64,000 nt of DNA from NCBI RefSeq assembly GCF_020179605.1, contig NZ_JAINZO010000001.1, positions 1,648,799 through 1,712,798 on the forward strand, in the 5' to 3' direction. Origin of the DNA: Geomonas agri (lineage in GTDB: Bacteria; Desulfobacterota; Desulfuromonadia; Geobacterales; Geobacteraceae). Position 1 is the stretch's first letter. Every line of letters begins with the position of its first letter. The notes under the pieces are model-generated. The model was not told where the DNA came from and did no database searches. It was given only the letters and a program-made list of their open reading frames with translations. A program made the position numbers and the translations under genes. Positions 21,196 to 31,742 of the stretch are shown piece by piece.

Positions 21196-22500
21196 CTAAT
21201 TTTCAAAGATGTCCCGGGGCAGCTCGTATCCGTACACCCTGAAGCGTTCCGCGAACAGCGGCCTGACCCCGGTAGCCCGGTACTCGCCGACCACCCTCCC
21301 CTCCTTGTCGATCCCCTTCTGGTCGAAGACGAACACGTCATGCATGACGATGGTGTTACCTTCCATGCCGGTGACCTCGGAGAGCTTCACCACCTTCCTA
21401 GTACCGTCGGAGAAGCGGACCAGCTGCACCACCACGTTGAGCGCGCTCGCCACCTGTTCCCTGATGGCGCGCTCAGGGAGGTCCATCCCCGCCATGAGCA
21501 CCATGGTCTCGATGCGGGCCAGGGCGTCGCGGGTCGTGTTGGCGTGCACAGTGGAAATGGAACCGTCGTGACCGGTGTTCATTGCCTGGAGCATGTCCAG
21601 CGCCTCGCCGCCGCGGATCTCGCCCAAGACGATGCGGTCCGGCCTCATCCTGAGGGCGTTGCGCACCAGGTCGCGCTGGGTGACCTCGCCCCTCCCCTCG
21701 ATGTTGGGAGGGCGGGTTTCCAGCCGCACCACGTGCTCCTGCTTGAGCTGGAGCTCGGCGGAGTCTTCGATGGTGACCACGCGTTCGTCGTGGGGAATGT
21801 AGGCCGAGAGGACGTTGAGCATGGTGGTTTTACCGGTACCGGTACCGCCCGAGATGAGGATGTTGAGCCTGGTCTTCACCGCTCCTTCGAGGAGCCGCTG
21901 CATGCGCGCGTCAAGCGTACCCAGGGTGAGGAGGTCTTCCATCTTGAGCGGGTCCTGGCCGAAACGCCGGATGGAGAGCACCGGACCGTCCAGGGCCAGA
22001 GGCGGGATGATGGCGTTGACGCGGGAACCGTCGGGAAGCCGCGCGTCCACGTAGGGAGAGGACTCGTCGATGCGGCGGCCGACCTTGGAGACGATGCGCT
22101 CGATGATCTGCATCAGGTGGGCGTTGTCCTTGAAGCAGACGTCGGTCTTGGCCAGCTTGCCGAAGCGCTCCACGTACACCTGCGAGGCCTTGTTGACCAG
22201 GATGTCCGAGACGTGGGGGTCGGCCAGGAGCGGCTCAAGAGGTCCCAGGCCGAAGGTCTCGTGCTGGATCTCGACCACGAGGCGGTCACGCTCGAACTGG
22301 TTCAGCGGCACCCCTTCCTCGATGATCAGATTTTCGATGACGAAGCCGATCTCCCGGTTGAGCTCGTTGCTCCCCAACAGGTCCAACTTGGCGAGATCGA
22401 GCCGCTCGATCAGGCGCCGGTGGATGCGGCTCTTGAGATCCTGGAAGAATTCCTGGTCCTGCATGGTGCCGGGGGTGCGAAACGGGTCGTTAGGCGTCAT
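21196..22500 (-). CDS. tadA: Tad pilus assembly ATPase TadA/CpaF
   Basis: A 434-aa secretion ATPase of the PilT/VirB11 superfamily that powers Flp pilus assembly and retraction. Walker A is GGTGTGKTT with Lys224. The Asp box ([12 protein letters not shown]), Walker B ([20 protein letters not shown]) and His box ([15 protein letters not shown]) follow. The N-terminal domain (about 20-190) is the CpaF-type. The gene sits between cpaE/tadZ and tadB, 27 bp after the former. All catalytic motifs are intact. Confidence 0.96.
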
Positions 22501-22527
22501 GGTGGCCTCTCGTATCGGTAGTCTGCG

Positions 22528-23649
22528 TTACTTGACCAGCTCGGCCAGCGTCAGGAGCGCCTTGCTGACTGGCGACCGGGGCGACATCTTCACCACCGGC
22601 ATCCCCTTGTTGATCGAGGCGACCACGTCCAGGTACTCGTTGGGTATGGTCTGGAATACGGTGTGGCCGAGTACCTTCTCGGCGTCCTTCACTTGGATGT
22701 CCGCCTTGGGGAGGTAGCGGTTGACTACCAGTTTCAGGCGGTCCTTGCGCAGCCCCTTGCGCTCCATGGCGGTCAGGTAGCGCTTGGAGTTCTTGAGGGC
22801 GGGGAGACTGAGAGCGGTGGTGAAGAGCACCACGTCCGAGGATTCGAAAATGGCCATGTTGCACCCGGCCAGCGGCCCGCCGCAATCAACTACCACGTAG
22901 GTGAAGACCCCCTTGAGAAACTCCAAGATGCGGCGCACCTGATCCGGGGTGATGGAGATGGCGTCGTCGACCTCGTTGGGCTCGGTAAGCACGAAGGGGC
23001 CGGAGGAGTGCCGGGTCATCACGGTCATCAGGAAATTGGCGTCGAGCCGGTCAATGTTGCTGGTGACGCTGCTCAGGGTGTAGGTCGGGTTGACGTCGAG
23101 GAAGGTGCTGATGTCCCCGGAATAGAGATTCAGGTCCACTAGCGCCACCTTGGTCCCTTCCGAGGCAAGGCTCGCGGCCAGGTTCACCGCGACCGTGGTG
23201 GTGCCGGTGCCGCCGGTCGGGTAGTAGACCGAGATGAGCTTGCCGTTGGGGGTCTTGTCGGAGCTGGAGGAGAAAAAGAAACGGCCCACCTTCTGCAGGG
23301 CCTGTTTCAGTTCCTCCTGGGTGATGGGGCGCAGCATGTATTCAACGGCGCCGGCGCGCATGAGCGAGAGGATCCAGTCGGAATTGCGCTCGGCGGAGCT
23401 GACGATGACCGAGGTTCTGGGAAAGCGCGAGGTGATGTGCTGCACCTCCTGCATGCCGCGCTGGATGTCGTTCACCTCGAGGATGACCACGTTGGGGGCG
23501 CTGTTCTCGATGAGCCGGACCCCATCGGCAAAGGTATCCACGGAGCCCGCGATGCTGATGGTCTCCGCAAACGGCCTCAGGGTTGCCTCGATGGATTCGC
23601 GGGCGGAGGCGTCGCTGTCGATGATGGCCAAAGTGATGGAAGGAGGCAT
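22528..23649 (-). CDS. tadZ: Pilus localisation protein TadZ/CpaE (receiver-like plus MinD-like ATPase)
   Basis: A 373-aa protein. Residues 1-125 form a receiver-like domain (LAIIDSDASARESI) whose phospho site region is VVILEV, so Glu stands where Asp is usual, suggesting a pseudo-receiver. The MinD/ParA-like ATPase begins near residue 140. Its P-loop reads YPTGGTGTTTVAVN, lacking the usual GK lysine, as in other CpaE/TadZ proteins. TadZ places the pilus machinery at the pole. It is directly upstream of tadA. Confidence 0.92.
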   Translation of the reverse strand: MPPSITLAIIDSDASARESIEATLRPFAETISIAGSVDTFADGVRLIENSAPNVVILEVNDIQRGMQEVQHITSRFPRTSVIVSSAERNSDWILSLMRAGAVEYMLRPITQEELKQALQKVGRFFFSSSSDKTPNGKLISVYYPTGGTGTTTVAVNLAASLASEGTKVALVDLNLYSGDISTFLDVNPTYTLSSVTSNIDRLDANFLMTVMTRHSSGPFVLTEPNEVDDAISITPDQVRRILEFLKGVFTYVVVDCGGPLAGCNMAIFESSDVVLFTTALSLPALKNSKRYLTAMERKGLRKDRLKLVVNRYLPKADIQVKDAEKVLGHTVFQTIPNEYLDVVASINKGMPVVKMSPRSPVSKALLTLAELVK

Positions 23650-23671
23650 ATGGGTCGTCGATCCTTTGTCG

Positions 23672-24763
23672 TTATTTCACCAGGGAGGCCTTGTCCCCCA
23701 GGAAGTTGGTGGTTTCGCAGGCTTCGCAGCTGATTGACAGCACTTCTATGTAACCGTCGGGACCACCACAAGAGGGAAGAGTGCTGGGGACGGTACCACT
23801 GTGACCGCCCGGCACGCTGACGTCGGAGATGGTGATCTGCGCGTACTGAACCAGCGAGGTGAAGCGCTCGCCCCATGAGACCGACGAGGGGCAAAGCCCG
23901 AAGATCGGGACCAGGATAGTCCAGGTGCCCCCGGGGGAAGAAGGCGTCCTCTTGGCGACGAAGGTGTCCTCCAGCACGTTTTTCACCTGGCCGAGGCCGT
24001 TGTTGGTGTAGAGCGTCTGGCCACAAAGCCCCAGCGGGATATCCTGCCTTCCATCGATCAGTTCCGCGACGACGCTGTTGCGCCCAAGATCGGTGGCGTG
24101 GGAGGTCGCGGAAAACTCAGTCCACCCCACGGTGTAGGTGTAGTCGAGGCCGCAGGCCGGATCCTTGGCCTGGGTCTGGTTGAAGTAGACCCTGAAAGGG
24201 GTCGGCTTGGAGCAGAGGTCCTGGCACAAGACCACCGGGGCCGAGGGCTTTGGGGGGCGGCAGGCGATGGCCTCCGACTTGGCGCTCATCTGCCCCCAGT
24301 TGAACACCTGCCCGAAAAACAGGGCAACCTGCTTGTTGTCGGTGCTGATCCCGGTCCCGGTCTCGGTGTTCCTGCGGGCCACCACCTTGACGGCGTTGGC
24401 GACCTTGCCGGCCGGCACGGGGTTGGCCAGCGTACCGGCGGTCTTGTCCCAGTAGCCGATGACCACGTCGCCGCCATTATCGTTGGTGTCGTTGCGATCG
24501 ACCTTCACCTGTTCGCCGGCCGCCTGGTTCTTCTCGGCGAAATCCTTGGCTGCCTGGCGCGCCGCTGCGAAATTGGAAAGCTTGGCGACGCCGGCCAGGG
24601 CACCAGCGTCGGCCGCGTTTTGCAGCTGCCCCTTGGCGACGTACATGTACCCCATGTCCACCGCCAGGCTGACGAAGGCCACCAGCACCACCAGCATCAG
24701 GGCGATGTAGACGATGGCGAAGCCTTTGTCGCCGAGCTTTTTCAATCCCCTAAAGGCATCCAT
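23672..24763 (-). CDS. tadG: TadG-like pilus protein with Flp-type N-terminus
   Basis: A 363-aa protein. A pilin-like N-terminal helix (GFAIVYIALMLVVLVAFVSL) is followed by the TadG-type sequence DMGYMYVAKGQLQNAADAGALAGVA. A large periplasmic part with scattered Cys follows (CRPPKP, CQDLCSKP, CGLDY, CGQTL, CEACE). TadG proteins are pseudopilin-like and help pilus assembly or adhesion; the von Willebrand domain of classical TadG is not obvious here, so this may be a shorter variant. Its start overlaps the secretin end by 22 bp. Confidence 0.82.
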   Translation of the reverse strand: MDAFRGLKKLGDKGFAIVYIALMLVVLVAFVSLAVDMGYMYVAKGQLQNAADAGALAGVAKLSNFAAARQAAKDFAEKNQAAGEQVKVDRNDTNDNGGDVVIGYWDKTAGTLANPVPAGKVANAVKVVARRNTETGTGISTDNKQVALFFGQVFNWGQMSAKSEAIACRPPKPSAPVVLCQDLCSKPTPFRVYFNQTQAKDPACGLDYTYTVGWTEFSATSHATDLGRNSVVAELIDGRQDIPLGLCGQTLYTNNGLGQVKNVLEDTFVAKRTPSSPGGTWTILVPIFGLCPSSVSWGERFTSLVQYAQITISDVSVPGGHSGTVPSTLPSCGGPDGYIEVLSISCEACETTNFLGDKASLVK

Positions 24764-26199
24764 GACAGCTCCTTCTCCTGTCCCGGAGTAAGCTTTCTGT
24801 CGGTCGGAAGCTCGGTCTTCACGCCCGGGGCCGTCGGCTGCACGAGCCTGGGCGTGATGAAGAACACCAGCTCCTTCTCCTTGATCTCCTTGCTGCTGGA
24901 GCGAAACAGGGCACCGAGTACCGGGATGTCGCCCAAGACCGGGATCTTGGACATGTTCTTGATCTCCTCCTCCTGGAGCAGACCGGCCAGGATCAGGCTT
25001 TCGCCGTCCTTCAGCTCGACGCTGGTCTCCACGGTCCTACTGTCGATAATGGGATAGCCGTTGACCGGCAGGAAGCCCTGGATGCTGCTCACCTCGGCCG
25101 GGTTGATCTTCAGGGAGATGGTGCCGTTTTCCATGACTTCAGGCTTGAACTTCAGCTTGATGCCGATCGGCTCGTACTTGATGGTGGTCGTGGCCTGGCC
25201 GTTGGTGCTCTCCACGATGGCGATGGGGACCTTGCTCCCTGCCAGGAAGTTCCCCTCCTGGGAGCTTCTCACCAGGAGGTTCGGCTCGGCGAGCACCTTG
25301 GCATGCCCCTTGGACGAGAGCGCCTGCAGCACCGCGGCGATACCGGCGGGGAAGTAGGAGACACCGACCTGGAAGGTGTCCAGCGAGGGGAAGTTACCGA
25401 TGCCCGTCCCGGTCCCGGACAGCGTGCCGTTGGGGCCGGCGATCAGGTTGGAGAAGCCTTCGCCGGTCTTGCCCTTGATGGCGTAGCTGATGCCCATCTC
25501 CCGGAGCGAACTCTTGTCGATCTGGGCCACCTTGACCTGCAGCAGCACCTGCTGAGGCGCGTTGACCGTGATGTTGTTGATCACCTTGCCCGCGTACGCC
25601 TTGGCGATCTCGACGGCCTTGGCCTTGGTCAGGTCGTTGGCAACGTTGCCCGAGAGTACCACCGTGTCGTTGGCGTACTGGACCTCGATGGTCTCGGTCG
25701 GCGCGATCTCCTTCAGCTGGGTCTCGATAGCCTGGCGATCACCGGTCACCTTCAGGTCGAAGAAGGTCGGCGCGGGGCGTTCGTCCCCCTCCCCCTTGGT
25801 CCAGATGATCATGCTGGTGCTGCCGATCATGATGCCGTCGAGCTTCAGCACGTATTCAGACAGGACCTCGGGGACCACGAACTTGTTGGTGTTGCTCACC
25901 TCGGAGTCGGAGCTCCTCTTTTTGGTCACGCTGACCGGCACCGGCACCACGACGGTCTCGTTCGTTCCCGGCCTTGGGAGGGTGACCGTCTGGTCCACGT
26001 CCTTCTCCTTGGCCTCCTTGTTGGTGTTGGCGAGGGTAACCAGGACGATCTTCTTGTTCTGGCTCTTGAAGTCCACCAGGATGCTCTTGTAGAGGCCCAC
26101 CTCCAGGGGAACACCGGCGGTGGCGGCGGTGGCGAAAGCACAGGTCAATAACAACGCCCAGGTCAACAGCAGCAGTTTTCTAGTCGGGACCATTATCAT
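24742..26199 (-). CDS. cpaC: Tad outer-membrane secretin CpaC/RcpA
   Basis: A 485-aa secretin precursor with a signal peptide (LLLLTWALLLTCAFATAATA, cleavage near residue 29). An N-terminal pilus-assembly domain and a BON-like domain (NDTVVLSGNVANDLTKAKAV) lead to the C-terminal secretin core (ILAGLLQEEE, PVLGDIPVLGALFRS, ELVFFITPRLV). It forms the outer-membrane exit pore of the Flp pilus. The ATG at 26199 is preferred, with GAGG 7 nt upstream; an ATG at 26193 is equally in frame. It is 36 bp downstream of cpaB. Confidence 0.94.
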   Translation of the reverse strand: MIMVPTRKLLLLTWALLLTCAFATAATAGVPLEVGLYKSILVDFKSQNKKIVLVTLANTNKEAKEKDVDQTVTLPRPGTNETVVVPVPVSVTKKRSSDSEVSNTNKFVVPEVLSEYVLKLDGIMIGSTSMIIWTKGEGDERPAPTFFDLKVTGDRQAIETQLKEIAPTETIEVQYANDTVVLSGNVANDLTKAKAVEIAKAYAGKVINNITVNAPQQVLLQVKVAQIDKSSLREMGISYAIKGKTGEGFSNLIAGPNGTLSGTGTGIGNFPSLDTFQVGVSYFPAGIAAVLQALSSKGHAKVLAEPNLLVRSSQEGNFLAGSKVPIAIVESTNGQATTTIKYEPIGIKLKFKPEVMENGTISLKINPAEVSSIQGFLPVNGYPIIDSRTVETSVELKDGESLILAGLLQEEEIKNMSKIPVLGDIPVLGALFRSSSKEIKEKELVFFITPRLVQPTAPGVKTELPTDRKLTPGQEKELSWMPLGD

Positions 26200-26235
26200 C
26201 AAAGCACCTCATTCGTGAGCTTTTTGCCGTAGTGG

Positions 26236-27162
26236 TTACTGGAGCACGAATTCCTTCGTGGTCCGCACGCCGCCGTCGATCACGGTAACCGTGTGTCCCT
26301 TGGCCGGGGCCGGGGCCGGAGCTTTCGGCTCGGTGGCCCGGGGGGCCTTGGGGGCCGCCGCTACCTTCTTGCGCGCAGGACGCTTCTGCACTGCCTTGGC
26401 CGGTGCGGCCACCGCAACCGGCGCCGGCGTGGCCTGCATGGGGGTTCCGGCAAGCACGCGCGCAATGGTGGCGCCCCTGGCGTCGATGGGAGCCGAGTCG
26501 GCGATGTTCCTGAGCAGGAGCTGCAGCGATCCCTTGCTGCCGGCCAAGACCAGCTTCTCCGAATCGTCCGGGGTCAGGTCCAGGGTGACCGTGGGCACGA
26601 TGACCGGCTTTCCCTCCTTCTGCTCGGTGATCTGACCTGTGGCGAGAACCGGCACGTTCTGCAGGATGATCTTGCTGATGTTCTCGTTGGGGGAGCCCGG
26701 GATGGCGGTGGTCAAGACGATGTCGACGCGGTCGCTGGGGGTGATGAAGCCGGCCACGCCGGCCACCTCGTTGACGGCAACGGTCGTCGCGCGGTGCCCG
26801 GGGGGGACGATGTAGGTCATGAAGCCGGTGCCCGCCGCGCCCACCTTGGGTTTAAGCTTCGACTCGGTGACCGCGTCGCCGCTGGAGATGGGGCGAATCG
26901 CCACCCTGCCCACCAGCGACTTGAGGTCGGCGGTACTGCCGGCAGGGATGCTGTCCTTGGGCCAGGAGGTGACTTTCAACTGGGCTTCGCTGATGGCACT
27001 GCCGATGGTAATGTCAGCCGCGGCGACGACAAGCGGCTGGGGCTGGACCGCCTTGGTCTTATCCATTTCCTTTTGCAGGTAGTGGAACGTGAGCCATGCC
27101 GCAATGCCCGCAAAAACCAGAGCAAGAATCGCAACGACGATTACTGCCTTGGGTCGTGTCAT
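26236..27162 (-). CDS. cpaB: Flp pilus assembly protein CpaB/RcpC
   Basis: A 308-aa protein. An N-terminal membrane anchor (AVIVVAILALVFAGIAAWL) is followed by a SAF domain (PLVVAAADITIGSAISEAQL ... GRVAIRPISSGDAVTESKL) and the RcpC core (PPGHRATTVAVNEVAGVAGFITPSDRVDIVLT). The C-terminus is an Ala/Pro/Lys-rich tail (about 235-290) that may bind peptidoglycan or the secretin. CpaB is a periplasmic component coupled to CpaC. It lies 23 bp after tadE. Confidence 0.93.
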   Translation of the reverse strand: MTRPKAVIVVAILALVFAGIAAWLTFHYLQKEMDKTKAVQPQPLVVAAADITIGSAISEAQLKVTSWPKDSIPAGSTADLKSLVGRVAIRPISSGDAVTESKLKPKVGAAGTGFMTYIVPPGHRATTVAVNEVAGVAGFITPSDRVDIVLTTAIPGSPNENISKIILQNVPVLATGQITEQKEGKPVIVPTVTLDLTPDDSEKLVLAGSKGSLQLLLRNIADSAPIDARGATIARVLAGTPMQATPAPVAVAAPAKAVQKRPARKKVAAAPKAPRATEPKAPAPAPAKGHTVTVIDGGVRTTKEFVLQ

Positions 27163-27185
27163 AGCACCTCCTGGAGATAATCAGA

Positions 27186-27662
27186 TTACTCATAACGCAT
27201 CGAAGCTTCGCCGGTGATGGTGTTGGTGATCGGTATCAAGATGGGGAGGATCGCCTCGAACTTGTCCCAGGTAAGGCGGACGTCAACACTGTCGCCGGGA
27301 CTAAGGCCGGAGGGAGCTTCCAACTCGGTGATGGTGATGTCGACGGTGACATCGGTCTTGACGATGCCGTTGTAAATACTGTTGCAGATCGTCTTGTACA
27401 CGGGGCCGTTCTGCCCGTTGAACTCGCTGTCGGTGCACAAGAGCTTCTTGGACGAATTGCTGGTGGACATGCCGTTTGGGTGCGTGGTGGCGTCGTACTT
27501 CGGCGTCACGACGGCCGTGCGCGCGCCGGCCCGCGCTGCATTGTTCAGTGTGTTCTTGAGAAACATGGCCCGGCCGAACTCAAAGAGTCCCATGATCAAG
27601 ATGATCACCAAGGGAAGTATTATCGCCGCTTCGACGAGAGCCTGTCCTTTTTGATCTTTCAT
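27186..27662 (-). CDS. tadE: TadE-family pseudopilin
   Basis: A 158-aa minor pilin. The prepilin motif KGQALVEAAIILPLVIILIM has Gly and Glu at the class IVb positions, followed by the TadE signature FGRAMFLKNTLNNAARAGAR. One N-terminal helix leads into a beta-rich periplasmic part ending GEASMRYE. TadE must be cut by a TadV-type peptidase, which is not in this window. It is the first gene after the terminator that separates it from the pilins. Confidence 0.92.
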   Translation of the reverse strand: MKDQKGQALVEAAIILPLVIILIMGLFEFGRAMFLKNTLNNAARAGARTAVVTPKYDATTHPNGMSTSNSSKKLLCTDSEFNGQNGPVYKTICNSIYNGIVKTDVTVDITITELEAPSGLSPGDSVDVRLTWDKFEAILPILIPITNTITGEASMRYE

Positions 27663-27861: not shown

Positions 27862-28056
27862 CTAGTTGAGGGCGCTGTTCACCTTGCTGAAAACGGTGTT
27901 CGCCTTGCCGCCGATACCGGTGACCATTGCGATGACGACGATGGCAATGAGTACGAGAATGAGAGCGTACTCAACAAGCCCCTGACCCTTCTCGTTCTTC
28001 AGGGTGCTCATACTGGTCAGAAACTTCACGTACAGCGACATCAAAAATTCGGTCAT
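27862..28056 (-). CDS. flp: Flp-family type IVb pilin (second copy)
   Basis: A 64-aa prepilin. The leader of about 24 residues ends in EKG, then QGLVEYALILVLIAIVVIAM. The G-X4-EY cleavage motif and hydrophobic helix are the Flp signature, and the mature peptide of about 40 aa ends FSKVNSALN. AAAGGAGACG precedes the ATG. It shares the core QGLVEYALILVLIAIVV with the other pilin 72 bp upstream, so the pair arose by duplication. A terminator follows. Confidence 0.94.
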   Translation of the reverse strand: MTEFLMSLYVKFLTSMSTLKNEKGQGLVEYALILVLIAIVVIAMVTGIGGKANTVFSKVNSALN

Positions 28057-28128: not shown

Positions 28129-28323
28129 TCACCCCCCGGCGTTACTCACGCTGGAGTTGATCGTCTCGTACGTATTGCTCAGTTTTACCCCCAGGCCCGA
28201 GACCATGGCGAAAACCACGATCGCTATCAGCACCAGTATCAGTGCGTACTCTACGAGCCCTTGGCCTTTGTTGTTCGAAAGCATGAGACGAAGACTTCTT
28301 AGAGGGTTCTCACAACAAGACAT
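28129..28323 (-). CDS. flp: Flp-family type IVb pilin (first copy)
   Basis: A 64-aa prepilin. Its leader (MSCCENPLRSLRLMLSNNKG) is followed by QGLVEYALILVLIAIVVFAM, with the G-X4-EY peptidase motif intact. The mature tail is YETINSSVSNAGG. The leader has two adjacent Cys absent from the second copy. AAAGGAAG lies upstream of the ATG. It is the first gene after the sigma-54-like promoter at 28491-28506, with a 5' leader of about 155 nt. It is probably the major pilin, but which copy dominates cannot be read from sequence. Confidence 0.93.
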   Translation of the reverse strand: MSCCENPLRSLRLMLSNNKGQGLVEYALILVLIAIVVFAMVSGLGVKLSNTYETINSSVSNAGG

Positions 28324-28490
28324 AAAGGCTTCCTTTGTCCATGCGGGGACTGACAGGAGATCATGCTCAACATGTTATTCAAGCAATTAAAAGATGTCAA
28401 TCCGCGGATAGCCACAAAAGAATTATTTTATTGTAATGCTTTTATAGCAACACTGTGGCAATTGAATATTTTTTAATTCAGAAAATATTC

Positions 28491-28506
28491 AGCACATAGT
28501 GTGCCG
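28491..28506 (-). promoter_or_regulatory. Sigma-54-type (-24/-12) promoter of the flp/tad operon
   Basis: Read leftward: CGGCAC, five bases, GTGCT, against the consensus TGGCAC-N5-TTGCW. The essential GG and GC doublets are present at exact spacing. A start near 28480 would give a 157-nt leader before the first pilin. A sigma-54 activator gene lies directly upstream. Confidence 0.6.
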
Positions 28507-28617
28507 GTATTAGCGGAGTGGAGTGGCCTAGAGGACAACCTCTTGGAATCCTTATACCAATTTCAGGCTAAACCGTGCCGGACCGCGAGGAGGAAATGGC
28601 AGGTGAAGAGGCAACTA

Positions 28618-28657
28618 TGTAAAGAGAGTGTAAAGGAAGTGTAAAGCGCGCTGTAAA
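28618..28657 (-). promoter_or_regulatory. Four phased TTTACA repeats, candidate activator binding sites
   Basis: On the minus strand TTTACA occurs four times, with left edges at 28618, 28629, 28640 and 28652, spaced 11, 11 and 12 bp, so roughly one helical turn apart. They end just past the regulator's stop and lie about 112-165 bp upstream of the sigma-54-like promoter, the usual distance for an enhancer site. Confidence 0.5.
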
Positions 28658-28658
28658 C

Positions 28659-30137
28659 TCACGAGTCGCGCCGGCCGGGGCGGTTCATGGGAATGTCGTG
28701 CTTCCGGATCAGGGCGTACATGCTGGGGCGGCTGATGTGCATCTGGCGCGCCGCCTTGGCGATGACGTAGCCGTTTTGCTCCAGTACGCTGATGACGTGC
28801 TCCTTCTGGGACAAGGGGCGCGCAACGGGGTCAGGCACGGATAGTATTGGCTCATCCTGGCCCAGTTCCATACACTCCGGGTCGATTACCTCCCCGGCCG
28901 CCATCAAAAAGCCCCGGCGCACCTTGTTCTCGAGCTCCCGCACATTGCCCGGCCAGGGGTGGACGCGGATGGCGTCCAAGGCCTCCTCCGAGAAATCAAG
29001 GAAACGGTTTTCGCTGTGGGAGAACTTGTCCAGGAAATAACGGGCCAGGCGGACCTTGTCCTCCCCCCGCTCGCGCAGGGGGGGGAGCTTGATAGTGAAG
29101 GAGTTGAGCCGGTAATAGAGGTCGGTGCGGAACGCCCCCTGCGCTATCGCCCCCTGCAGGTCGCAGTTGGTGGCCGCGACGATCCTCACGTCGATCTTCC
29201 TGGAGGCGGTCGACCCTACCGGCTGAACCAACCGGTCCTCCAGAAAGCGCAGCAGCTTCGCCTGCAGGGCAGCCGGCAGGTCGCCGATCTCGTCCAGGAA
29301 CAGGGTGCCGCCATCGGCGGACTCAAACTTCCCCTTCCTGGCGGTGTAGGCCCCGGTGAAGGCCCCTTTCTCGTAGCCGAACAGTTCCGCCTCAAGCAGG
29401 GTCTCTGGAATGGCGGCGCAGTTGACGGCAACGAAGGGTCCCTCCCGGCGCGTGCTCAGGCTGTGCAGTGACTTGGCGGTCAACTCCTTGCCCGTGCCGC
29501 TCTCCCCCAAAAGGAGCACGCTCATCTCGGTGGGAGCGACCTTCCTGATCATGGAGAAGACGCACAGCATGGCAGGCGAGGTCCCCACGAACTCTTTGTC
29601 GGGGGAGCGGTGCTGGATCTTCAGGAGCTTGGAATCGACGAAGTGAATGATCTTCTGGATGTGTTCAAGGTTGAGCCGGCTCAGGCGGATGTTGAGACGT
29701 TGGGCGAAGGTGTTCTCGATGTGCCGTTCGAGGTAGTTTTTCTTGGAGAAGTCGAGGTAGAGATTGCAGTTGTCGCAGGAGCCTTCCCTGGAGTCGTCGG
29801 GGTGACTGCAGTAGGGGCAGTCGTCGGTATGGGGGAGTTTGTCGCGGATGTGCTCCCAAAGTGCCTGCATGGTGCCCTGGTCGGAGTAGAACAGGCGGAT
29901 CGCCGCGCCCTTCTTCCCCTGCCGCACCAGCTTGGCCAAGAGTTCCACCTCTCCCGTGCCGGGCAGAACCGGCCTGATGGCGAAGAGCTCGCTCAACTGG
30001 GTGGAAAGCCCGTCCACCAGGGCGCCGCTGAGGCTGAGCTCCCGGATGGTCACCCGCTCTTCCAGCCGGTCCTCCCTGGAGAGGTAGCACACCCTGGACT
30101 CCAGATCGGTTCTAACCCTGACGTCAAGCCTGCCCAT
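28659..30137 (-). CDS. Sigma-54 enhancer-binding protein with PilZ and zinc-ribbon-like N-terminus
   Basis: A 492-aa activator. Residues about 1-95 look like a PilZ domain: R3xxxR7 and ELSLSG (33-38) match the c-di-GMP motifs RxxxR and (D/N)xSxxG, with Glu for Asp. Next come C107xxC110 and C121xxC124, a zinc-ribbon-like element. The AAA+ core has GESGTGKE (211-218) and GAFTGA (258-263), and a Fis-type HTH ends the protein ([20 protein letters not shown]). There is no receiver domain. It sits upstream of the pilins on the same strand, with a sigma-54-like promoter between, so it probably activates the tad operon. c-di-GMP sensing is inferred. Confidence 0.88.
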
Positions 30138-30332
30138 TGCCCATGCGTCTCCTAGCGATTACCAGCCGCTTCGCTGGACTGTTTAGTTAAAGTGTGTCAA
30201 TATTCTCCAGACCGTGGAACTGTCAAGTGGGGGCCTTTTTCTGGCACAGCCGTGACACGGGTTCTTTACATACTTTATTATTGAGGTAAATCTTACCACG
30301 AAGCCGCGCATATGACAGTCATGGGGGGAACA

Positions 30333-31742
30333 ATGTTCATTCTCGGTGAGAAGCTGGTTAAGGAACACATCATTACCCAGGCACAACTTGACGAGGCCCT
30401 GGATCGGCAGCGCCGGCTGGGCGGGCGGCTCGGGCACAACCTGGTCGCCTTGGGGCACGTCACCGAGCAGGATATTAAGAAGCAGTACCAACGGAATCCC
30501 CCACCGCCCAAATGCGTGGAAGACACCGGGCTCGACCTCTCCTTCATTACCGACCTGGTCCTCAAGCACATCGTCTTCATGGGGGAGTTCCGCATGGGGG
30601 ATGTGGTGGACCGGATCAAGCTCCCCATGACCATCGTCAACCGAGCGCTGGAGGTGTTAAAAAGGGAAAAGTTCGTCGAGATCAAGGGCGCCACGAGCTA
30701 CGCGTCGGCCACCTACACCTTCAAGGTCACGGAGTCGGGACAGAAACGGAGCCTGGAACTGATGGACCTGTGCAGGTATGCGGGGCCGGCGCCGGTGACG
30801 CTGGACGAGTACCAGACCATGGTTGAGCTGCAGACGGTGAAGTGTGTCACCATCAGCGAGGAGACCCTGCGGGACGCCTTTTCCCACCTGGTATGCCGGG
30901 AGGACCTGTTCCGGCGCCTGGGGCCGGCCATCACCTCGGGCAAGACCGTGTTCATCTACGGACCTCCCGGCAACGGCAAGACCGCGATCGCCGAGGCGGT
31001 AGGACGCGTCCCCACGGACTTCGTCTACGTCCCCTACGCCATCGACGTCGGCGGCCAGATCATCAGCGTGTTCGACCCGGTGAACCACATCCCGGTACCG
31101 TCGGCCCTGCTGCCCGAGAACGTGGACCAGCGCTGGGTGCTGGTGCGCAGGCCGGTGGTCATGGTGGGGGGCGAGCTGACCATGAGGATGCTCGACCTTG
31201 ACTTCAATCGCATCTCCAAGTACTACGAGGCCTCGCTGCAGTTGAAGGCAAACAACGGCATCTTCATCCTGGACGACTTCGGCCGGCAGCAGATCGAACC
31301 CCGGGACATACTGAACCGCTGGATCGTCCCCCTGGACCGTCACATCGACTTCATGACCCTGCACACCGGCATGAAGTTCGCGGTTCCCTTCGACATGCTG
31401 GTCATCTTCGCCACCAACCTCGACCCGTCCGAGCTTCTGGACGAGGCGTTTTTGCGCAGGATCAGGTACAAGGTGGAGATCGACCGCCCAACGGAAACGG
31501 AGTACCACAAGATCTTCAAGATGGTTTGCGCCGCCAACGAGGTCTCCTACAGCCAGGAGGCATACGACTACCTGATAAGTTACTGCTATAAGCAGTACGG
31601 CGCCATACCGAACGCGTGTCACCCGCGCGATCTCATAGAGCAGATCATTGTCGAATCACGCTACCACAACCAACCGGCGCGACTGACAAAGGAAAGTATT
31701 GAGATGGCATGTTCCAATTATTTTGTTAAAATGGTGACATGA
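30333..31742 (+). CDS. AAA+ ATPase with MshEN-like N-terminal domain
   Basis: A 469-aa protein. Residues 1-52 (ILGEKLVKEHIITQAQLDEA ... LVALGHVTEQDI) resemble the MshEN/GspE N-terminal domain, which in pilus ATPases binds c-di-GMP. A winged-helix-like part follows (about 70-145). The AAA+ core has Walker A GPPGNGKT (210-217), Walker B FILDDFG (311-317), a sensor Asn (VIFATNLDP) and arginines (FLRRIRYKVEI). It is not a PilT-type ATPase, as the Asp and His boxes are missing. The start is the ATG at 30333 with GGGGGG upstream; one at 30312 lacks a site. It is divergent from the tad regulator and possibly a pilus-linked ATPase. Confidence 0.8.
   Translation: MFILGEKLVKEHIITQAQLDEALDRQRRLGGRLGHNLVALGHVTEQDIKKQYQRNPPPPKCVEDTGLDLSFITDLVLKHIVFMGEFRMGDVVDRIKLPMTIVNRALEVLKREKFVEIKGATSYASATYTFKVTESGQKRSLELMDLCRYAGPAPVTLDEYQTMVELQTVKCVTISEETLRDAFSHLVCREDLFRRLGPAITSGKTVFIYGPPGNGKTAIAEAVGRVPTDFVYVPYAIDVGGQIISVFDPVNHIPVPSALLPENVDQRWVLVRRPVVMVGGELTMRMLDLDFNRISKYYEASLQLKANNGIFILDDFGRQQIEPRDILNRWIVPLDRHIDFMTLHTGMKFAVPFDMLVIFATNLDPSELLDEAFLRRIRYKVEIDRPTETEYHKIFKMVCAANEVSYSQEAYDYLISYCYKQYGAIPNACHPRDLIEQIIVESRYHNQPARLTKESIEMACSNYFVKMVT

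Follow-up and report, generated by a model that had tools for sequence, protein, structure and literature searches.

A candidate sigma-54 switch for Flp (Tad) pili in Geomonas agri, with a PilZ-like activator gene beside a TTTACA array and a -24/-12 promoter

In the 64,000-nt stretch of the Geomonas agri genome analysed here (the window), four direct TTTACA repeats and a -24/-12 element lie between a sigma-54 activator gene and an flp-tad pilus operon (Table 1). We think it likely, on comparison of sequences, that a local sigma-54 switch at this locus controls the Flp (Tad) pili, with a PrsR-like DNA-binding module placed under a sensor made of a PilZ domain and a cysteine motif. The regulator would be a one-component enhancer-binding protein in which PilZ and a zinc-ribbon-like motif are joined to a GAFTGA-bearing AAA+ motor and a Fis-type helix-turn-helix (HTH). 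Most likely the HTH binds the four half-sites that follow directly on the stop codon of the regulator gene; on sensing a PilZ ligand, for which c-di-GMP is the best candidate, the protein would oligomerise, loop across ∼110 bp to the promoter at 28506-28491 and open sigma-54 polymerase there, with transcription starting near 28480 and running through flp1-flp2-tad. A sigma70-like block before flp1 may make a contribution of its own. That this regulator switches on the pilus through the repeats had been proposed in a preliminary description of the locus, and the proposal is supported because array and promoter are conserved at near-constant spacing, because the array tracks the regulator and because the half-site is common to sibling regulators and the predicted PrsR site.

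Table 1. Features of the predicted switch and the adjoining pilus operon (positions in the window).
Feature	Position	Strand	Basis or remark
Sigma-54 activator gene, PilZ-like/cysteine motif/AAA+/Fis-type HTH, 492 aa	28659..30137	minus	ORF and Pfam
N-terminal PilZ-like domain, ∼aa 1-100, R3xxxR7 and ELSLSG	29838..30137	minus	PF07238 in distant members
Zinc-ribbon-like CPYC-x10-CxxC (C107, C110, C121, C124)	29766..29819	minus	invariant Cys
AAA+ sigma-54 interaction domain and lid, with GAFTGA	28875..29588	minus	PF00158 7.4e-71, PF25601 1e-17
Fis-type HTH, SRPxxY recognition helix	28692..28808	minus	HTH_8 0.00086, below its cut-off
TTTACA copy 1	28652..28657	minus	begins one base beyond regulator stop
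TTTACA copy 2	28640..28645	minus	conserved in relatives
TTTACA copy 3	28629..28634	minus	conserved in relatives
TTTACA copy 4	28618..28623	minus	112 bp upstream of GG of -24/-12
-24/-12 element CGGCACACTATGTGCT (CGGCAC-ACTAT-GTGCT), exact GG-N10-GC	28491..28506	minus	+1 expected at 28480 by convention
Conserved sigma70-like block TTGACA-N17-TAACAT	28372..28400	minus	cross-locus alignment and promoter scan
First Flp pilin	28129..28323	minus	Flp_Fap 5.2e-7, 29.8 bits, just under cut-off 32.2
Second Flp pilin	27862..28056	minus	Flp_Fap 8.2e-11, over cut-off
tad genes: TadE-like, RcpC/CpaB, secretin, TadG-like, receiver/ParA-like ATPase, TadA-type ATPase	21196..27662	minus	Pfam

The regulator (P0001) has both the AAA+ domain with GAFTGA and the C-terminal HTH of a sigma-54 enhancer-binding protein, and RpoN is encoded in the G. 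agri genome. HTH_8 matches the regulator weakly, yet this model matched all 22 aligned members at E values up to 1. The preliminary description had called the protein PilZ-containing. Pfam finds no PilZ domain in P0001, even at E 10, but PF07238 exceeded its cut-off in the N-termini of two of eight relatives (L046, 5.4e-9; L129, 7.1e-7), with weak matches in L038 and L125 (0.032 and 0.15) and none in the other four. A profile search of the PDB returned one weak match (0.044), to an uncharacterised protein. The c-di-GMP-binding signature of PilZ domains is RxxxR followed by (D/N)xSxxG; P0001 reads ExSxxG, with E33 in place of the usual D or N, and its R3 and R7 are invariant in 22 of 22 aligned rows and in 14 of 14 rows of another alignment. 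The four cysteines are likewise invariant (22 of 22 rows), and DZR_2 matches to their motif are weak and below cut-off. The best reading of the N-terminus is a divergent PilZ domain with a four-cysteine zinc-ribbon-like motif, together forming a predicted sensor. On the other side of the regulator, the interval 30242-30311 carries a single TTTACA (30265-30270) and the palindrome GGTAA-ATC-TTACC, also found in several relatives; this interval separates the regulator from a divergent ATPase-like gene, 30312-31742, and is probably that gene's promoter region.

The downstream genes form an Flp/Tad operon by their Pfam matches (T2SSE 3.8e-72, RcpC 1.4e-30, Secretin 2.8e-47 and the second Flp). The first Flp ORF starts 167 bp beyond the -24/-12 element, and no Rfam match to a known RNA, such as a c-di-GMP riboswitch, was obtained in this leader. 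Several claims of the preliminary description agree with what we found: a -24/-12 element before the first Flp (the exact GG-N10-GC of CGGCACACTATGTGCT), a start near 28480 (the +1 expected by convention from that element), an activator gene ending at 28659 (confirmed as an ORF), and four TTTACA copies at steps of 11, 11 and 12, which read 12, 11 and 11 from 5′ to 3′ on the minus strand. The array had been placed 112-165 bp upstream; its actual position is 112-152 bp upstream of the GG, or 138-177 bp upstream of the expected +1. The repeats had also been said to lie on one face of the helix, and they are roughly phased, but because the 11-12 bp steps sum to 34 bp, ∼3.2 helical turns, same-face phasing is only approximate. 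The hexamer itself is not rare (13 in the window against 8.9 expected); four copies within 40 bp are, since 0 of 300 shuffles of the locus reached 4 per 80 bp. We rejected the array as a set of sigma70 -35 boxes, as no site in the promoter scan starts within it. With up to 3 mismatches, the -24/-12 consensus would be expected 106 times in the window and is found 89 times, so that the sequence match alone is not above chance and the case for the element comes from its conservation.

To assess this conservation, orthologs of the regulator were sought in 58 genomes, including that of G. agri. Close orthologs (74-85% identity to P0001) were found in 10 other genomes of the genus, and in all 10 the order regulator-flp-flp-tadE-rcpC-secretin was retained, on to the receiver/ParA gene, with the first exact TTTACA 10-35 bp past the regulator stop and GG-N10-GC further on. 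A further ortholog, on a MAG contig from another family (L124, genome G100), shares 69% identity over the regulator's first 180 residues and is followed by three exact TTTACA copies and GTTACA, TGGCACATAAAGTGCT and a Flp-pilin-like ORF, on a contig of 3.7 kb that ends before any tad gene could appear. Array and promoter, whose conservation the preliminary description had named as a check, are thus kept beside all 11 other flp-adjacent orthologs, those of the 10 genus genomes and the one from another family. GG-N10-GC is present at 12 of 12 loci (11 of 11 genus loci and L124), although these counts are not independent events because the genus loci share ancestry.

The spacing at these loci is also similar. 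Together, the 12 loci including L124 contain 44 exact TTTACA copies, separated by steps of 11 (22 times), 12 (7 times), 10 (twice) and 21 bp (once). The GG lies 109-113 bp beyond the fourth NTTACA copy at 12 of 12 loci, L035 being measured from the final copy of its longer array, and this reference point was chosen post hoc, when the positions had already been seen; counting exact copies only, the gap is 109 to 124 bp. Three relatives (L036-L038) carry a fifth copy about one turn further on, and the very last NTTACA there is 98-100 bp from the GG. Mean column conservation across the 11 genus loci was 0.80 in the array, 0.54 in the spacer, 0.87 in the -24/-12 element and 0.80 in the TTGAC block further downstream. 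The spacers of six relatives (L029-L034) contain the word TAATCA ∼50-60 bp upstream of the GG; it is absent from the window and is possibly a DNA-bending site.

The array was found only where the regulator is. The pattern TTTACA-N5,6-TTTACA-N5,6-TTTACA occurred in 11 of 19 genus genomes, the same 11 that have an ortholog of the regulator, and the reversed pattern in none of the 19; relatives of TadA are present in 16 of them. Using a cluster cut-off of 3 or more half-sites per 80 bp, picked after the genus arrays were seen, we found no cluster at 40 other sigma-54 activators of the G. agri genome (40 of its 45 other matches), where the maximum per 80 bp was 0 (16 activators), 1 (23) or 2 (1). 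Nor was a cluster found at any of 20 other TadA loci, none of which exceeds one TTTACA/TGTAAA per 80 bp; flp was located at 13 of these, with a single TTTACA before it at 2 of the 13. The array as a general feature of tad loci is rejected on these controls. Among the 13 control loci, only L140 had a -24/-12 match within 700 bp before flp. This flp-tad cluster has its own upstream sigma-54 activator, receiver-type by eye; L140 suggests that tad operons may have come under sigma-54 control on more than one occasion.

A wide regulon marked by TTTACA pairs was considered and is not supported: the 19 genomes hold 44 pair matches, of which 27 fall at flp loci, 3 near siblings and 14 at other places (L096 accounts for 2 of the 14), as against 28 for the reversed pattern. 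The only other three-copy array, L096 (G003:C1:1297167), lies between two large minus-strand genes, and no -24/-12 match was found on its strand in a stretch that begins 500 bp ahead of the array and ends 800 bp beyond it. An additional TTTACA pair of the G. agri genome is at G000:C1:2007713-2007730.

Regulators with the same N-terminus are also encoded beside other operons. With the first 180 residues as query, members were detected in 25 of 141 genomes of the order, and a profile search detected them in 13 of 395 genomes of the phylum, G. agri being included in both counts. Several siblings (among them L039, L042, L043, L127, L129, L217, L223 and L225) accompany operons that by eye encode repeat proteins and a C39-type protease, and which we take to resemble the Fap amyloid system. 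Pfam identified the L127 protease as C39-type (8.7e-22) and, for the barrel-like proteins, gave PF13557 in L126 (9.8e-5) and a sub-threshold match only in L041. This arrangement of sibling activator and operon extends to AT-rich lineages that are only distantly related. TTTACA/TGTAAA clusters are present next to siblings at Fap-like operons, and the last TTTACA is 51-53 bp from the GG of a TGGCAC-type promoter at L039, L041, L042, L043, L127 and L221; L223 has five direct copies 45-83 bp from TGGCAT-N6-TGC, and at L216 and L217 the half-sites are paired or single. The flanks of the two kinds of half-site resemble each other: of the 44 flp-type copies, 33 have a C before and 29 a C after, and of the 29 sibling copies, 15 and 13, respectively.

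Clusters were also counted by recognition helix. They accompanied 18 of 19 members with SRPxxY + A/S/H but none of the four with SRPTLYRR, none of the four with TRQTLHRR and not L125 (0 of 1); over all SRPxxY members of this first set the count is 18 of 23. Each SRPTLYRR member has one TTTACA or more ahead of its -24/-12, and L040 (52% identity, SRPTLYAMIKRYGI) lacks a half-site cluster. A later set of 13 loci, from other lineages, comprised 11 of the 12 non-own profile matches plus L200 and L201, with a short frame in G273 and the cut loci L202 and L203 omitted. Here 4 of 9 SRPxxY members, counting L218 (SRPALYDRF), had at least 3 half-sites as opposed to 0 of 4 others (one-sided Fisher 0.18), and each of the four clusters was reached in 0 of 300 shuffles. 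Because this later set is weaker, our confidence in the switch reading is slightly lowered.

The TTTACA half-site connects the regulator to PrsR. In their passages on this element, Haft et al. 2006 (PMC1569441) report that PEP-CTERM genes of proteobacteria are preceded by a 17-nt motif with TTTACA at its end, in some cases repeated, and by a spacer to -24/-12 averaging 62.8 nt (range 32-92); they predict PrsR as the activator for the combined site. PrsR (TIGR02915) gives the best E-value in the NCBIfam table for the 22 members and is the second-best match of P0001 itself, at 367.2 bits, below the cut-off of 502.6. Of the 40 control activators, all of them with a readable helix, only the G. agri PrsR has one of the SRPxxY kind, SRPTLYDLMKKLSI. 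The regulator's DNA-binding specificity is most likely of the PrsR kind, judging by this shared helix, by a Fis-type sigma-54 activator in both systems and by TTTACA, sometimes repeated, upstream of -24/-12 in both (PMC1569441, as far as its description of the motif goes). The two differ in that the N-terminus here is PilZ-like with a cysteine motif, whereas PrsR has a receiver domain (no Response_reg match was found in P0001 at E up to 1), and in that the activator gene here adjoins its presumed target, which is flp-tad.

PrsR might instead be the protein, alone or with the adjacent regulator, for which the array serves as enhancer, so that pili would follow the EPS programme; we consider this unlikely. 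Its case begins with TTTACA being the half-site predicted for PrsR in the motif description of PMC1569441 and with a PrsR in the G. agri genome that exceeds the family cut-off and has the SRPxxY helix. The composite TTTACA-N40-70-TGGCAY-N6-TGC, taken as favouring a PrsR enhancer, matches 37 times in the 19 genus genomes and its reversed pattern only 2 times; the 37 are a raw count in which some matches recur with coding-like sequence. However, PrsR exceeds its cut-off in 88 of 141 order genomes (G. agri included) and in 17 of 19 genus genomes, while the three-copy array occurs only in the 11 that have the adjacent regulator, and other flp-tad clusters in PrsR-bearing genomes are without an array. 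The half-site and the promoter are present before flp, but four direct repeats at 109-113 bp (112 bp in the window) fall outside the 32-92 nt that PMC1569441 gives for the PrsR motif. It is possible that PrsR itself is a second binder of the array.

Absent from the preliminary description was the conserved sigma70-like block before flp1, which could serve either as an additional promoter, of the sigma70 type, or as an operator. That the operon is driven mainly from this block, with the -24/-12 match unused or only modulatory, seems to us quite improbable. The block scores 10 of 12, sigma70-like sites in the region number 2 against 0.7 expected, its conservation over the 11 loci equals that of the array, and TTGAC lies downstream of -24/-12 at 12 of 12 loci (at L032 another TTGAC comes first and the block itself is also present). 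Such a promoter would nevertheless leave the array, the -24/-12 element and their near-constant spacing unexplained, and its -10 hexamer varies among relatives, with no clear one seen in L124. In relatives the block reads TTGAC-N..-TTAATAA-..-TAYAAA, the middle part having diverged in the window. It is not phased with the -24/-12 element, because the distance between them varies from 88 to 129 bp (L032, with its earlier TTGAC, left out). Highly improbable, in our judgement, is that CGGCACACTATGTGCTG is the hairpin terminator of the regulator gene and not a promoter, even though it has a 7-pair stem, a loop of 3 and a T-rich tail (1 such structure found in the region against 0.4 expected). No T-run was seen behind the hairpin in relatives, the dyad is partly inherent in the -24/-12 consensus, and the sixth stem pair is broken in L034 and in the sibling promoters of L126, L127 and L216, siblings that keep GG-N10-GC.

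The proposed sigma-54 switch is a new combination of known kinds of parts. Tandem sites are also a feature of the PilR-pilA system of Pseudomonas, which differs in its type IVa pilus, PilS sensor kinase and other half-site. As at the locus described here, a sigma-54 activator is found beside a pilin promoter in that system, according to the part of PMC6058289 that describes it. Sigma-54 control of Flp/Tad pili is itself already known from DVU2114 of Desulfovibrio vulgaris, a sigma-54 activator whose mapped targets include Flp/Tad-type pilin genes (Rajeev et al. 2011, PMC3333781) and which is placed under pili in PMC4641369; in the passages on it, PMC3333781 presents DVU2114 as a two-component response regulator, mentions no PilZ, and describes most sites as palindromes, the two direct-repeat cases belonging to other regulators. 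Clusters of 3-5 tandem short direct repeats before sigma-54 promoters are described for Nla28 of Myxococcus xanthus in the portion of PMC9765219 that deals with them, but there the half-site is the 8-bp CT(C/G)CG(C/G)AG and the candidate targets are many (70 promoters). A literature search of titles and abstract openings found no sigma-54 activator with a PilZ sensor controlling flp.

The switch reading gives the Tad pili of Geobacter relatives a candidate regulator, enhancer and start site and, if true, the joining of PilZ to a sigma-54 motor would let c-di-GMP act on sigma-54 transcription in a single step. More tentatively, as an idea that may well fail, a family of one-component PilZ/zinc-ribbon sigma-54 activators might use the PrsR word TTTACA with -24/-12 elements, in varied copy number and orientation, to make both Flp pili and Fap-like amyloid operons respond to c-di-GMP. 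As PrsR is predicted to read this half-site too, a single enhancer word could then cross-wire exopolysaccharide, pili and amyloid. The TTTACA word would be common to three surface programmes, PEP-CTERM/EPS, Flp pili and Fap-like fibres, which raises the question of how related activators avoid, or use, cross-talk.
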